Of a stretch of 36,405 nt of DNA, positions 8,572 to 36,405 are shown piece after piece. The DNA is from Bifidobacterium breve (GTDB lineage Bacteria; Actinomycetota; Actinomycetes; Nanopelagicales; Nanopelagicaceae): contig CAMCYA010000009.1 of NCBI GenBank assembly GCA_945883675.1, forward strand, positions 1-36,405, in the 5' to 3' direction. Within the stretch, counting starts at the first letter, position 1. Each line of letters begins with the position of its first letter. A program made the translations under genes and the position numbers. A model generated the notes under the pieces. The model was not told the origin of the DNA. It saw nothing but the letters and a program-made list of their open reading frames with translations, and did no database searches.

Positions 8572-9534
8572 ATGAGTGAACTCAATCTTTCACCAATTGA
8601 TCGTGGCAGCGAATTACGCACTGACGCCGCAAAGTTGGAGCAACTCTGGAAAGAGGCTCAGATAATTCACCTTGTTGATTCCAGAGTTAGCGCAACAGAT
8701 GACGCGTTAACTTTTATCAATGCCGCTGCTGTCGCAGAACTTTTAGAGAGCTTTATTGAAGGCGAGCGGTTTTTCCTTGGAACAAGCCGTGAGGACAACC
8801 AGCCATATTTTGCCTGGCGGACAACCTGGATTAATCAACCGATCGATGACGGTTCAGGTGATTTTGAAAAAGATAAATATCATGGGTTTAAAACATTACG
8901 TGAAGTTGGTGGCAATTTAGATGCAGAAGACTTAACTCTTGCAATGCATTCAGTTGGTTTAGCAAATTGGCATGAAAACCACACTCACTGTTCTAAGTGC
9001 GGCGCACAAACAGTTATCGATTTGGGTGGAAGCGCTCGCATATGTACCGAAGATTCAACACAACACCATCCCCGCACTGATCCAGCGGTAATTGTTCTTG
9101 TCAGAGATGCAGCGGATCGAATTTTGTTAGGCCATCAACCAATTTGGCCAGAGAAACGTTTTTCAACCTTTGCTGGATTTGTCGAGACAGGTGAGTCATT
9201 TGAAGAATGTGTCTCGCGAGAAGTATTTGAAGAAGCCGGTGTTTACACATCACAAGTTAATTACATAACTTCTCAACCGTGGCCATTTCCTGCATCCATC
9301 ATGATTGCATTTGAAGCATTTGCAGATCGCCCGCAAGATGCCCGCCCAGACGGTCAAGAGATAACTGAAGTTCGTTGGTTAAGCCGTGATGAGATGAAAC
9401 AAGCAGTTGCAACAGGTGAAATTTTGTTACCACCAGGAATCTCTGTAGCAAGAAGAATGATTGAATCTTGGTATACACGTGTAGAAGGTTATTCACGAAG
9501 CGATTTGCAAGGCGAGCAATCTTGGAGACCGTAG
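8572..9534 (+). CDS. nudC: NudC-type NADH pyrophosphatase / NAD-cap hydrolase
   Basis: 320 aa Nudix enzyme that hydrolyses NAD(H) and removes NAD caps from RNA in characterised relatives. It has the Nudix box GFVETGESFEECVSREVFEEAGV-type pattern (G-x5-E-x7-REVxEEAG), the NudC-specific SQPWPFPAS motif just after it, and an upstream zinc-ribbon remnant HCSKCG followed by RICTED in place of a second CxxC. The segment PRTDPAVIVLV marks the start of the catalytic domain. ATG 8572 is chosen over TTG 8563 because TAGCGT sits 8 nt ahead of it. The reading frame overlaps the start of uvrD2, as in the mycobacterial nudC-uvrD2 neighbourhood. Confidence 0.93.
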   Translation: MSELNLSPIDRGSELRTDAAKLEQLWKEAQIIHLVDSRVSATDDALTFINAAAVAELLESFIEGERFFLGTSREDNQPYFAWRTTWINQPIDDGSGDFEKDKYHGFKTLREVGGNLDAEDLTLAMHSVGLANWHENHTHCSKCGAQTVIDLGGSARICTEDSTQHHPRTDPAVIVLVRDAADRILLGHQPIWPEKRFSTFAGFVETGESFEECVSREVFEEAGVYTSQVNYITSQPWPFPASIMIAFEAFADRPQDARPDGQEITEVRWLSRDEMKQAVATGEILLPPGISVARRMIESWYTRVEGYSRSDLQGEQSWRP

Positions 9535-11201
9535 GAAATCTTCGTGCTGAAGAAATTCTTAACGCATTAGATGCCGAACAACGCGCTGTTGCACTTGCCT
9601 CACGTGGACCTGTCTGTGTAATTGCTGGTGCAGGAACTGGGAAAACACGTGCAATCACTCATCGCATCGCATATGCCGCTGCAATCGGAACAATGGATCC
9701 ACACAAAACACTTGCACTTACCTTTACTGCTCGAGCCGCTGGAGAGATGCGGGCACGACTTCGCTCATTAGGAGTTCCATCGGTTGCTGCACGAACTATC
9801 CACGCAGCAGCTTTAAAGCAGTTAACTTTTTTTTGGCCCCAAGTTTTCGGTGGCCGAACACCTGACTTAATCACCACAAAATCTAGTTTTTTATCAGAGG
9901 CCATTAAGCGCGCACAGCTTCAAAGTGAACTTTCAATAACCTCAAGGGATCTTCTCCGTGATGTCGCAACCGAGATTGAGTGGTCAAAAGTCTCACAGAT
10001 TGCACCTTCAGATTATTTGGCAGAGTCACAAAAGCGCACAGTCAAACCTCGAATTAATCCTGAGCAGTTAGCAAAGGTCTATACCGCCTACGAAAGTGTT
10101 AAGCACCAAGAGCGTGCAATTGATTTTGAAGATGTTTTACTTCTGACCACTGCGATGATTGAGCAAGAGCGCGAAGTACGAGAGAGAGTTCAAGACCAAT
10201 ATCGTTTTTTCACTGTTGATGAGTATCAGGATTTCTCACCTCTACAACAGCGTTTGTTAAATGCATGGCTCGGCAGTCGCCAAGAGCTATGCGTTGTCGG
10301 TGATCCTGCTCAGACAATTTATTCATTTGCTGGCGCAACACCGGTTTTTCTTAATTCATTTACAAACAGGTTTCCTGATGCGCAAGTTATTCGCTTAACA
10401 ACTGGGTATCGATCTACGCCTGAGATTATCTACACAGCCAATAGCATCTTGCGCAAAGGCGCTATGGGTAATGAGCTAGTTGCGGTAAATGATCACGGAT
10501 CAAAGCCAACTATTACTGCATATAACGATGAATCAGCAGAGATTGCAGGAATTATTCGAGACATTACTGCACTGATTTCAGAAGGTGTTGCCCCACAAGA
10601 GATCGCAGTCCTTGCTCGAACAAATAACCAGCTTAATGGTTTAGAAAAAGCTATGAACTCAGCAAACTTGCCAAACCAGGTTCGTAATACCGAACGTTTT
10701 TTTGAGCGTAAAGAAGTTCGAGACTTCCTTCGCTTAGTTCGAAATGCATCTGTTATTCCGACACAAGGAGTTGAGTGGCTAGATGAACTTCGAACACTTG
10801 CTCAACCATTTCTAACAGGTGGGCCAATAGATGGAATTGCCGCTCTGCTGCACCTGGCTCGAGAGTTGGATGCTGACACCGCATTTACTCCAAAGAATTT
10901 ACGCACATATCTTCGCGAAGTTGAAGATTTAGTTTCTCAAAATAATCCTCCAACAATGCCTGTAACAACCCTTGCAACTTTGCATGCAGCAAAGGGCTTG
11001 GAGTGGGAACGTGTATTTCTGATGGGAGCCAGCGAGGGCATATTGCCCTTAGAAAATAACAGCACCACAGGTGATCAAGCTTCAATTGATGAAGAAAGAC
11101 GTTTGTTTTATGTGGGCATCACGCGAGCCAAGGCAGATCTGCGCCTGAGTTATCGTGGAAAGCCATCTCGATTTCTTCTCGAAGCAGGGCTAGTTAACTA
11201 G
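9522..11201 (+). CDS. uvrD2: UvrD2-type SF1 helicase without HRDC and tetracysteine modules
   Basis: About 559 aa from TTG 9522, preceded by AAGGCGAG at a usable distance and overlapping the nudC end by 13 nt; an upstream in-frame TTG (9468) would add non-homologous residues. All UvrD/Rep motor motifs are present: Walker A AGAGTGKTR (K41), Walker B TVDEYQD, motif III VGDPAQTIYSFAGA, motif V TLHAAKGLEWE, motif VI VGITRAK. The protein stops at FLLEAGLVN right after the motor. Mycobacterial UvrD2 continues with an HRDC domain and a four-cysteine module, to about 700 aa; neither is present here and none is encoded downstream. Role inferred: 3'-5' unwinding in DNA repair. The UvrD2 name comes from similarity of the N-terminus and from synteny with nudC and whiB7. 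Confidence 0.85.
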   Translation: METVGNLRAEEILNALDAEQRAVALASRGPVCVIAGAGTGKTRAITHRIAYAAAIGTMDPHKTLALTFTARAAGEMRARLRSLGVPSVAARTIHAAALKQLTFFWPQVFGGRTPDLITTKSSFLSEAIKRAQLQSELSITSRDLLRDVATEIEWSKVSQIAPSDYLAESQKRTVKPRINPEQLAKVYTAYESVKHQERAIDFEDVLLLTTAMIEQEREVRERVQDQYRFFTVDEYQDFSPLQQRLLNAWLGSRQELCVVGDPAQTIYSFAGATPVFLNSFTNRFPDAQVIRLTTGYRSTPEIIYTANSILRKGAMGNELVAVNDHGSKPTITAYNDESAEIAGIIRDITALISEGVAPQEIAVLARTNNQLNGLEKAMNSANLPNQVRNTERFFERKEVRDFLRLVRNASVIPTQGVEWLDELRTLAQPFLTGGPIDGIAALLHLARELDADTAFTPKNLRTYLREVEDLVSQNNPPTMPVTTLATLHAAKGLEWERVFLMGASEGILPLENNSTTGDQASIDEERRLFYVGITRAKADLRLSYRGKPSRFLLEAGLVN

Positions 11202-11309
11202 CCATTTACGCTCAAATTAATCACCTTGCAAGTAAGGTCGCCCATGCTTTACCATTGACACTTCACTATTCATGGCGGGTAGTGAAAATGAGAGAAGGGA
11301 TCAACGAAT

Positions 11310-11465
11310 ATGTCTAACGCATTATTCGTAACAGCAAACGCACCGCGTTCTGCTGCGATCGCTGCTTCTCATACAACCAAAAAGTCTTCTTGGCATACCT
11401 CAAAGCCTGCGTTTTACGCAGCTTTTTATGCCGGACAAGAGGCCAATGGTGGTTCAATCGAATAA
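11310..11465 (+). CDS. 51-aa ORF in the whiB7 leader (candidate regulatory leader peptide)
   Basis: ATG at 11310 is preceded by GAAGGGA (11294-11300), 9 nt away, and the frame runs to TAA at 11463-11465. The product starts MSNALFVTANAPRSAAIAA and has a central KKSSWH and an aromatic YAAFYAG stretch before an acidic end. It has no transmembrane segment and no motif I recognise. The stop codon lies in the loop of a 6-bp hairpin, and a strong terminator begins 22 nt later. It may be a sensor of ribosome stalling for whiB7 control, or simply a small free-standing protein gene with its own terminator. The sequence cannot decide between these. Confidence 0.55.
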   Translation: MSNALFVTANAPRSAAIAASHTTKKSSWHTSKPAFYAAFYAGQEANGGSIE

Positions 11466-11486
11466 TTCGATAAAGAACTAGAAGCC

Positions 11487-11530
11487 AAGGGCCTCGAATC
11501 CACAAGGATTCGGAGCCCTTTTTCTTTTTC
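11487..11530 (+). terminator. Strong intrinsic terminator between the leader ORF and whiB7
   Basis: Bases 11487-11501 pair with 11506-11520 around an ACAA loop: a 15-position stem with one U-G wobble and one C/A mismatch, GC-rich at the base, followed by TTTCTTTTTC. Part of the 5' arm (TCGAAT 11494-11499) is also complementary to ATTCGA (11465-11470) just upstream, which gives a possible competing pairing. Confidence 0.88.
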
Positions 11531-11650
11531 TAAAACGAACAAAACTCAAACGAGTAAAGACAAATAACCAATAAGAGAAAGACCGGAAGCAGTACCCGAT
11601 AACAATCGGCCAACAGGGAGACAGAGTTTCCCAGAAAAAGAGGTGAGAAC

Positions 11651-12049
11651 ATGAGCGTTCTCTTCAGCGAACTATTAGTACCAGGCTGGGCAGATGAGAA
11701 GATCGGTTTAGATGCGGTAACAGGCACCTACAGCGATGGCTCATCATTTAACTTGCCATGTCACACTAGCGATCCTGAACTCTACTTTTCTGAGGACGAG
11801 TTAGAAGTCGCGCAAGCTAAATCTCTATGTGGTGGATGCCCTGTGCGAGCACAGTGTTTAGAAGGCGCCTTATCCCGCCAAGAGCCAGCTGGCGTATGGG
11901 GTGGTGAACTATTTGAAGATGGTCGCATCATTGCCAAAAAGCGCAAAGCTGGTCGCCCGTCTCTTAAAGAAGTTGCAACACGAGATGCAGAAGGCGAGTT
12001 AATTGAACTCACTCTCGCTCCTAAGCAACGCGATGAGAGTGCGGCGTAA
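11651..12049 (+). CDS. whiB7: WhiB7-family Fe-S transcription activator
   Basis: 132 aa. The four [4Fe-4S] ligand cysteines are C37, C60, C63 and C69 (LPCH, CGGCPVRAQC), followed by the WhiB turn GVWGGE (81-86) and an AT-hook-like KKRKAGRPS (96-104). The run from LPCHTSDPELYF to GRPSLKEVA aligns by eye with mycobacterial WhiB7 almost throughout, and the gene also lies next to uvrD2 as in Mycobacterium. WhiB7 binds the primary sigma factor and turns on intrinsic resistance genes when translation is inhibited. Here there is a longer N-terminus and about 25 extra residues after the AT-hook. AGAGGTGAG (11639-11647) is the ribosome-binding site. It is preceded by an attenuator-like leader. Confidence 0.88.
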   Translation: MSVLFSELLVPGWADEKIGLDAVTGTYSDGSSFNLPCHTSDPELYFSEDELEVAQAKSLCGGCPVRAQCLEGALSRQEPAGVWGGELFEDGRIIAKKRKAGRPSLKEVATRDAEGELIELTLAPKQRDESAA

Positions 12050-12063: not shown

Positions 12064-12441
12064 GTGAACTCAGATTCTGTCAAAGCCGCTAAAGCTCGCG
12101 CACTAGTGGCATCCCTACTGTTCCTAGAGGCTGGAGTGATTTTTGCATTAGCAATGTGGTTAGTTGGGCTAACTATTTTTGCTGATTCATTTGAGTTGTT
12201 GCCTTTATTAGGTGTGCTCTTGTTCGCTCTACTGGGTTCAGGTGGACTAGCTATTTCAGCTGTTGGTTATCGCAAAGGGAAGTACTTTGGAAGATCACCT
12301 TCGGTTCTAGCAAACTTAATTGCATTGGGTGTAGTTACTTATATGTTGCAGGCAAAGTTATGGTTTGTCGCTGCAGCGCTTGCAACACTTGCACTTACTA
12401 CTTTAATTGCAACCTGGCGCGCTATTCCAACAGATATATAG
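12064..12441 (+). CDS. Small four-helix integral membrane protein, function unknown
   Basis: 125 aa from GTG 12064, supported by a -10-like TAAACT 6 nt upstream and no ribosome-binding site. Four hydrophobic segments are visible at about 13-38, 44-68, 82-95 and 98-116, with the basic loop YRKGKYFGRS between the second and third, so the loop is probably cytoplasmic. I recognise no family motif. It follows whiB7 by only 14 nt and might be read through from it. It faces the SDR gene, ending 29 nt from that gene's stop. Confidence 0.7.
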   Translation: MNSDSVKAAKARALVASLLFLEAGVIFALAMWLVGLTIFADSFELLPLLGVLLFALLGSGGLAISAVGYRKGKYFGRSPSVLANLIALGVVTYMLQAKLWFVAAALATLALTTLIATWRAIPTDI

Positions 12442-25595: not shown

Positions 25596-25672
<77 letters not shown>

Positions 25673-36223: not shown

Positions 36224-36405
36224 GGGGGTGAACGGTCTCGACTTTGGATGTTGAGGCAGGGGAAGCGGGCCGAGGAAGCCGGAATGATCTCGTAAACCAA
36301 TAATCCGTGCAAAAATAACTGCTGACAACAATCAGCAAGCTTTCGAACTCGCTGCATAAGCATTTCGAAGCCGTTAGCCCAGGTGCCGCTCTCGACCTGG
36401 AACCT
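36224..36405 (+). ncRNA. ssrA: tmRNA (5' part; 3' end outside window)
   Basis: The 5' end GGGGGTGAACGGTCTCGACT matches the conserved tmRNA start that forms the tRNA-like domain. The tag reading frame begins at GCA 36309 and encodes AKITADNNQQAFELAA with a TAA at 36357-36359; its AA end marks it for degradation by Clp proteases. Pseudoknot-type sequence follows to the window edge. The 3' tRNA-like half is missing because of the window limit. Next to smpB, as is common. Confidence 0.95.

Follow-up and report, generated by a model that had tools for sequence, protein, structure and literature searches.

A candidate ribosome-mediated transcription attenuator in the leader of whiB7 in freshwater actinobacteria

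Introduction

Actinobacterial whiB7 genes carry a long leader in which an upstream open reading frame (uORF) and an intrinsic terminator make up an attenuator that operates by means of an antiterminator overlapping both (PMC10727445, PMC11550727, PMC13393426, PMC4128351; the primary source is Lee 2022). The closest described systems are the whiB7/wblC attenuators of Streptomyces coelicolor and Mycobacterium (Lee, Lee & Roe 2022; Burian & Thompson 2018; Dinan 2014, PMC4128351), and an earlier description of the present DNA, the sequence-only reading, had named whiB7 attenuation in these genera as a precedent, which the published work on actinobacterial whiB7/wblC bears out. The locus described here resembles them in its uORF, intrinsic terminator, overlapping antiterminator and WhiB7-type promoter, and it shares a uvrD2-like neighbour with most of the whiB7/wblC loci of the class that were examined. 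It differs from the known attenuators in that the leaders of its genus are lower in GC, have uORFs of 41–69 codons in which a motif specific to the genus, FYA-x-FYA, lies close to the 3' end and, in two clades, have uORFs predicted to be leaderless.

Attenuators of other genes share parts of this arrangement. In the ilvB1 attenuator of M. tuberculosis a ribosome positioned on the stop codon covers about 26 nt and blocks the antiterminator, and a stall at the regulatory codons permits it (PMC13236596), much as we propose below; ilvB1 is unlike the whiB7 leader in that it governs an operon for amino-acid biosynthesis, to which its control codons (LVVI) correspond. Attenuation of the trp/ilv type, in which the downstream genes make the amino acid of the leader codons, does not describe the present leader, where the downstream gene encodes a transcription factor. 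The leaders of ABCF resistance genes (are5sc, vmlR) and of lmo0919/rli53 also combine a uORF with a terminator and antiterminator and are induced by ribosome drugs, but the uORFs of are5sc and tiaA are very short, with stalling at the start codon, and a resistance gene rather than a regulator follows directly (PMC12421871, PMC11550727).

Results and Discussion

Gene context of the leader

The window, which is the whole stretch of 36,405 nt that was analysed, belongs to a draft genome of 1.19 Mb, which has the freshwater Ca. Planktophila/acI actinobacteria as its nearest named relatives. A uvrD2-like helicase gene (9468–11201, + strand; open reading frame call and Pfam UvrD-helicase match, E 1e-53) lies upstream of the leader, is a conserved neighbour, and is separated by 449 nt, from its stop codon at 11199–11201, from the ATG of whiB7 at 11651. 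The whiB7 gene (11651–12049, + strand) matches Pfam WhiB with 62 bits, and its product contains four cysteines, a GVWGGE sequence and an AGRP AT-hook-like motif. The top match among solved structures in the PDB is WhiB7 of M. tuberculosis (E 1e-22), followed by the next WhiB protein at 3e-10; judged by its sequence, the gene is a WhiB7 orthologue. Three further WhiB proteins are encoded in the source genome. A 125-residue hydrophobic open reading frame without a Pfam match (12064–12441) starts 14 nt past whiB7, and co-transcription of the two is possible.

Of 135 genomes of the genus, 105 have WhiB7; among those with a completeness of 90% or more the count is 41 of 44. The DNA upstream of these genes yielded 89 distinct leaders. 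The order uvrD2, uORF, terminator, whiB7 recurs across the genus, with a distance from uvrD2 to whiB7 of about 350–510 nt where one contig carries both genes (the gene end in L100 is less clear). In all 89 leaders an open frame ends 107–221 nt 5' of whiB7, encodes a C-terminal motif of the YA-x-FYA type and is followed directly by a terminator, and the hairpin around its stop codon is likewise found in every one. The sequence-only reading had correctly placed the 449-nt gap, the 51-codon frame, the hairpin with the stop codon as its loop and the terminator with its T tract, and had looked to related genomes for support; the three elements recur throughout and compensatory changes are present, as described below. 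It had also held that occurrence of the 51-residue frame as an ordinary gene elsewhere would count against an attenuator. Within the genus the frame was never found in that situation, and all matches to the peptide adjoin whiB7 or come from contigs too short to reach the whiB7 position. Three draft genomes have two whiB7 copies or part copies each, namely G007 (C56, C3), G036 (C12, C5) and G142 (C7, C42). The two copies in G007 differ in sequence type, and contamination is the simplest explanation for the doubling in all three.

The predicted promoter and 5' end of the transcript

In promoters of the WblC/WhiB7 type the binding box lies 3 nt 5' of the -35 element, a spacer of 16–19 nt leads to TANNNT, and transcription starts 7–8 nt further on (PMC7157823). 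The region 11217–11255 (+ strand) fits this layout, with an AT-rich box TTAATC (11217–11222), the trinucleotide ACC, a -35 element TTGCAA (11226–11231), an 18-nt spacer and a -10 element TACCAT (11250–11255), as identified from the motif and a pattern match in the own genome. The motif with a spacer of exactly 18 nt is found in 68 of the 89 leaders, and the remainder are truncated or off-pattern. The motif points to a WhiB7-responsive promoter upstream of the leader, which WhiB7 would bind and which is presumably autoregulated. The TTGACA box to which the sequence-only reading had drawn attention is present at 11255–11260; it was rejected as a promoter because it is not conserved, its counterpart in relatives being TTGTCA or TTGCC, and because it overlaps the conserved -10 element and the predicted start. 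When whole genomes were scanned with the strict promoter pattern (G000, G143, G067, G015, G156, G155, G060 and others), essentially whiB7 alone was recovered and other matches stayed at the control level. These streamlined genomes may have a very limited visible WhiB7 regulon, or one that relies on a looser motif.

The extreme 5' end of the predicted transcript folds into a 10-bp stem-loop, TTCACTATTC...GGGTAGTGAA (11263–11287, + strand; -10.7 kcal/mol), that begins at the predicted transcription start. A stem starting no more than 5 nt from the predicted start is found in 64 of 68 leaders, and in most relatives the sequence has changed and the stem is kept. A role as an mRNA-stability element is possible.

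The uORF and its peptide

The uORF (11310–11465, + strand; frame call and conservation) has 51 codons, ends with TAA at 11463–11465, and is preceded by a Shine-Dalgarno-like AGAAGGG (11293–11299, + strand) 10 nt 5' of its ATG. Similar purine-rich stretches precede the uORF starts of most relatives. In L017, L086 and L098, and in L101, L102, L105 and L106, the ATG lies 5–9 nt past the -10 element, and in these two clades the uORF is predicted to be leaderless, the others having a Shine-Dalgarno sequence. The reading frame is maintained across the genus, with most change at third codon positions. Comparison of the 89 leaders, in which the frame, a start signal and the peptide recur and the 3' part has a synonymous bias, indicates that the uORF is probably translated.

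Codons 35–41 encode FYAAFYA (11412–11432, + strand), just 5' of the antiterminator strand. Residues Phe 39, Tyr 40, Ala 37 and Ala 41 are conserved at 1.00 and Tyr 36 at 0.98, and position 38 is Ala in 0.71 of sequences. At codons 36–37 and 39–41 the amino acids are thus 98–100% conserved while the codons vary (GCA/GCC, TAC/TAT), and in 69 of 72 distinct sequences the distance from the last Ala of the motif to the stop is 11 codons. Codons 44 and 45, on the other hand, are preserved at the codon level as GAG and GCC. The codon columns therefore suggest two kinds of selection, one on the peptide at FYA-x-FYA and another on the RNA at GAG GCC and its partner arm. The peptide is also unusual in composition. 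The uORF of the window has 12 Ala among 51 residues where 5.3 are expected from the window proteins (P 0.005), and 23 Ala, Ser and Thr where 12.4 are expected (P 0.001); genus uORFs average 22% Ala and 46% Ala, Ser and Thr, as compared with 10% and 24% in window proteins.

Terminator and predicted antiterminator

The intrinsic terminator (11487–11529, + strand) consists of a stem at 11487–11520 with loop ACAA and T tracts at 11519–11529. On its own it folds with about -22 kcal/mol and, relative to dinucleotide shuffles, the terminator segment has z = -4.6 and the fold of the whole leader z = -5.9. All leaders of the genus have a terminator, with energies between -17.8 and -24.3 kcal/mol and a mean of -22 kcal/mol. 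The 5' arm of the terminator is shared with a second predicted structure, an antiterminator at 11439–11495 (+ strand) for which folding and covariation provide the evidence. Here GAGGCC (11439–11444), the codons 44–45 described above, pairs with GGCCTC (11490–11495), TGGTGGTTC (11447–11455) pairs with GAACT and GCCA, and the tip is formed by ATCGAA-TAA-TTCGAT. In the RNA, UGGUGGUUC lies opposite GAACU and GCCA, and the AUCGAA/UUCGAU tip is closed by a UAA triloop. The antiterminator has 21 bp and a fold of -26.1 kcal/mol, with z -4.7 against dinucleotide shuffles. Its 3' strand doubles as the terminator's 5' arm, so that the two structures are mutually exclusive.

The same arrangement is predicted throughout the genus, where the terminator 5' arm is captured by the antiterminator in all folds, with a mean of -28.3 kcal/mol as compared with -22.2 kcal/mol for the terminator alone. 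The antiterminator segment has z < -2 in 62 of 65 distinct sequences (mean -4.9), and the stop codon falls inside the apical loop in 65 of 65 distinct leaders, as compared with 20% in shuffles. In the divergent group L101, GGATCCGGGTC lies opposite an altered arm, GGGCCCTAATCC, with retention of pairing.

These structures alter two parts of the sequence-only reading. The hairpin with TAA as its loop (11457–11471, + strand) exists as described, but as an isolated 6-bp element it is weak (z -0.8) and it is instead the apical part of the antiterminator. The competing pair that had been proposed, ATTCGA (11465–11470) with TCGAAT, is superseded by GAGGCC together with the 11447–11455 segment. The concern that the competing pairing amounts to about 6 bp against a stronger terminator does not hold for the 21-bp antiterminator (-26 vs about -22 kcal/mol), because the GAG GCC codons pair with the terminator arm GGCCTC.

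Covariation

RNAalifold applied to a plain MAFFT alignment gave a consensus of 5 pairs. Indels in the antiterminator tip keep this consensus small, and for this reason a swap test and a covariance-model alignment were used. In the covariance-model alignment, which is fitted to the structure, 12 of 22 pairs have two-sided changes, there are 61 compensatory cells as compared with 21 ± 4 after shuffling, and 81% of cells are paired as compared with 22–49% when the structure is slid by 1–3 columns. An alignment that was not fitted to the structure gave a weaker signal that is still present (covariation score 0.171 vs 0.135 ± 0.007). In the alignment-free swap test, the 5' and 3' strands of each of 16 clades were compared with strands exchanged between clades in 20000 permutations, the counts of which are not strict probabilities because the clades are related. 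Own strands outperformed swapped strands for the antiterminator tip (-11.5 vs -8.3 kcal/mol) and for the terminator arms (-21.9 vs -18.4 kcal/mol), with 0 of 20000 permutations as good in either case. The base helix is nearly invariant and has little covariation (309 of 20000 with 16 clades; not significant with 11). The comparisons thus indicate that tip and terminator covary, and the predicted antiterminator, built from the uORF end and the terminator 5' arm, is partly covarying.

Comparison across the class

Among 52 leaders from elsewhere in the class, belonging to other genera and families, capture of the terminator arm by the end of the uORF amounts to 0.65, as compared with 0.33 in shuffles, and 40 of the 52 have z < -2. 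In 44% of them the stop codon is placed in an apical loop (20% when shuffled), in contrast to its placement exactly in the loop in all genus members by the same test. This strict placement is also found in sister genera of the family. The covariance model built for the genus matches the element, with E values from 4e-10 to 0.04, in further genera of the family and, in a class-wide search beyond the family, found no match; there the architecture persists and the sequence does not. An Rfam search of the leader gave no match at the gathering score, and two matches at E up to 5 were both far below their gathering scores. Attenuation of whiB7/wblC through a uORF is already published, and a similar architecture occurs class-wide; what is specific to the genus is FYA-x-FYA, together with the strict placement of the stop codon that the sister genera share. 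The suggestion that a 51-residue leader frame would make this a different version of the system consequently finds weak support: the length is not unusual, as it lies within the genus range and the class has a similar architecture. What sets the lineage apart is the FYA-x-FYA motif and the position of the stop exactly in the loop.

A model for the switch

The effect of ribosome position was modelled on the window RNA with a 26-nt footprint, a value taken from PMC13236596. In nascent RNA, before the 3' arm of the terminator exists, the predicted probability of the antiterminator is 1.00 with the A site at codon 39 or earlier, 0.67 at codon 40 and 0 from codon 41 on, so that the modelled switch point coincides with the FYA-x-FYA motif. 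With a ribosome at the stop codon the terminator has a modelled probability of 0.96. For later stall positions, about one relative in three retains a partial capture of the arm. In the full-length window RNA at equilibrium the terminator is favoured even with a stalled ribosome (P 0.92), and equilibrium favours the antiterminator in only 11 of 67 genus leaders; read-through would therefore have to be kinetic, as in other attenuators. An upstream hairpin is able to form in ribosome-free RNA according to folding, which makes the behaviour of the untranslated state uncertain. A constrained two-state comparison was set aside, as it conflicts with direct enforcement of the structures.

We consider it very probable, at roughly 0.88, that the leader is a ribosome-mediated transcription attenuator controlling whiB7. 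The attenuator-like character that the sequence-only reading had assigned to it is upheld by synteny, conservation of the uORF peptide, covariation of the terminator and the antiterminator tip, and the computed ribosome-position switch. In the proposed mechanism transcription would start at about 11262 from the WhiB7-type promoter, presumably activated by WhiB7, and a ribosome would begin the uORF behind RNA polymerase. In normal translation the ribosome would reach the stop codon in the antiterminator loop and melt or block the antiterminator, the terminator (11487–11523) would fold and whiB7 would remain off. If the ribosome were slowed or stalled at or before about codon 39–40, by ribosome-targeting drugs or by too few charged tRNAs such as those for Ala, Phe or Tyr, codons 44–45 (GAGGCC) would be left free. 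The antiterminator could then form before the terminator 3' arm is made, and polymerase would read on into whiB7. Translation attenuation of the erm type, in which the whiB7 ribosome-binding site (GAGGTGAG, 11640–11647, + strand) would be sequestered, is unlikely because the predicted switch ends about 120 nt 5' of that site.

Alternative explanations

The switch could chiefly be an amino-acid sensor in which the FYA-x-FYA codons and the Ala-rich peptide gauge the supply of Ala, Phe and Tyr, with antibiotics as a secondary input. The enrichment of the uORFs in Ala and in Ala, Ser and Thr is in favour of this, as is the presence of control-like codons at the modelled switch point. The amino-acid composition of the mycobacterial whiB7 uORF reportedly enables whiB7 to respond to starvation, with a specific role when alanine is scarce (Poulton 2024, a study cited in PMC13236596 and PMC10727445), and this too counts for an amino-acid sensor. 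However, no single biosynthetic end product corresponds to Phe, Tyr and Ala together, the gene that follows is a general regulator of translation stress, and amino-acid and drug inputs could both work via one stall; we regard a primarily amino-acid-sensing switch as somewhat unlikely. Alternatively, FYA-x-FYA could be a drug-dependent nascent-chain arrest motif, the peptide itself stalling the ribosome with certain antibiotics as in erm leaders. Residues Ala, Ser and Thr promote stalling by chloramphenicol and linezolid (context specificity), and the peptide is rich in them; moreover its motif is nearly invariant in amino acids, free in synonymous change and situated exactly where a stall must occur. 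Against this, FYA-x-FYA is confined to the genus, with WYPAF or GFYTF at the matching place in sister genera, and whiB7 leaders of other actinobacteria reportedly respond in its absence, which leaves an arrest motif unlikely. The same low expectation applies to an arrest-peptide variant in which the whiB7 leader of streamlined freshwater actinobacteria acquired FYA-x-FYA as a sensor peptide, whose nascent chain would stall the ribosome, with drugs or under charged-tRNA shortage, at the exact tipping codon.

A further explanation would be that the uORF is an ordinary gene for a small protein, closed by a terminator of its own, and that whiB7 is transcribed from a separate downstream promoter. 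The uORF does appear to be under peptide selection and a good terminator follows it, but within the genus it is found only in front of whiB7 and its 3' end is held at the codon level so as to pair with the terminator arm. A + strand promoter between 11530 and 11650, which the sequence-only reading had named as evidence that would speak against attenuation, was looked for and not found, and conservation within the leader is lowest there, with 20–42% identity to relatives whose antiterminator and terminator are 93–98% identical. We therefore consider an ordinary gene of this kind highly improbable, and retain the ribosome-mediated attenuator.

The full whiB7 antibiotic and translation-stress attenuator seems to be kept in small-genome freshwater actinobacteria, which suggests that these bacteria are exposed to ribosome stress in open water. 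Taken together, the leaders of the genus also dissect the attenuator into parts kept as peptide, parts kept as RNA and the required ribosome stop, and the sensing step can be tested by a few point mutations.

Other features of the window

Two RNA genes were observed elsewhere in the window, a single tRNA gene (25599–25672, - strand) and the 5' half of a tmRNA gene (36224–36405, + strand) that runs off the window end.
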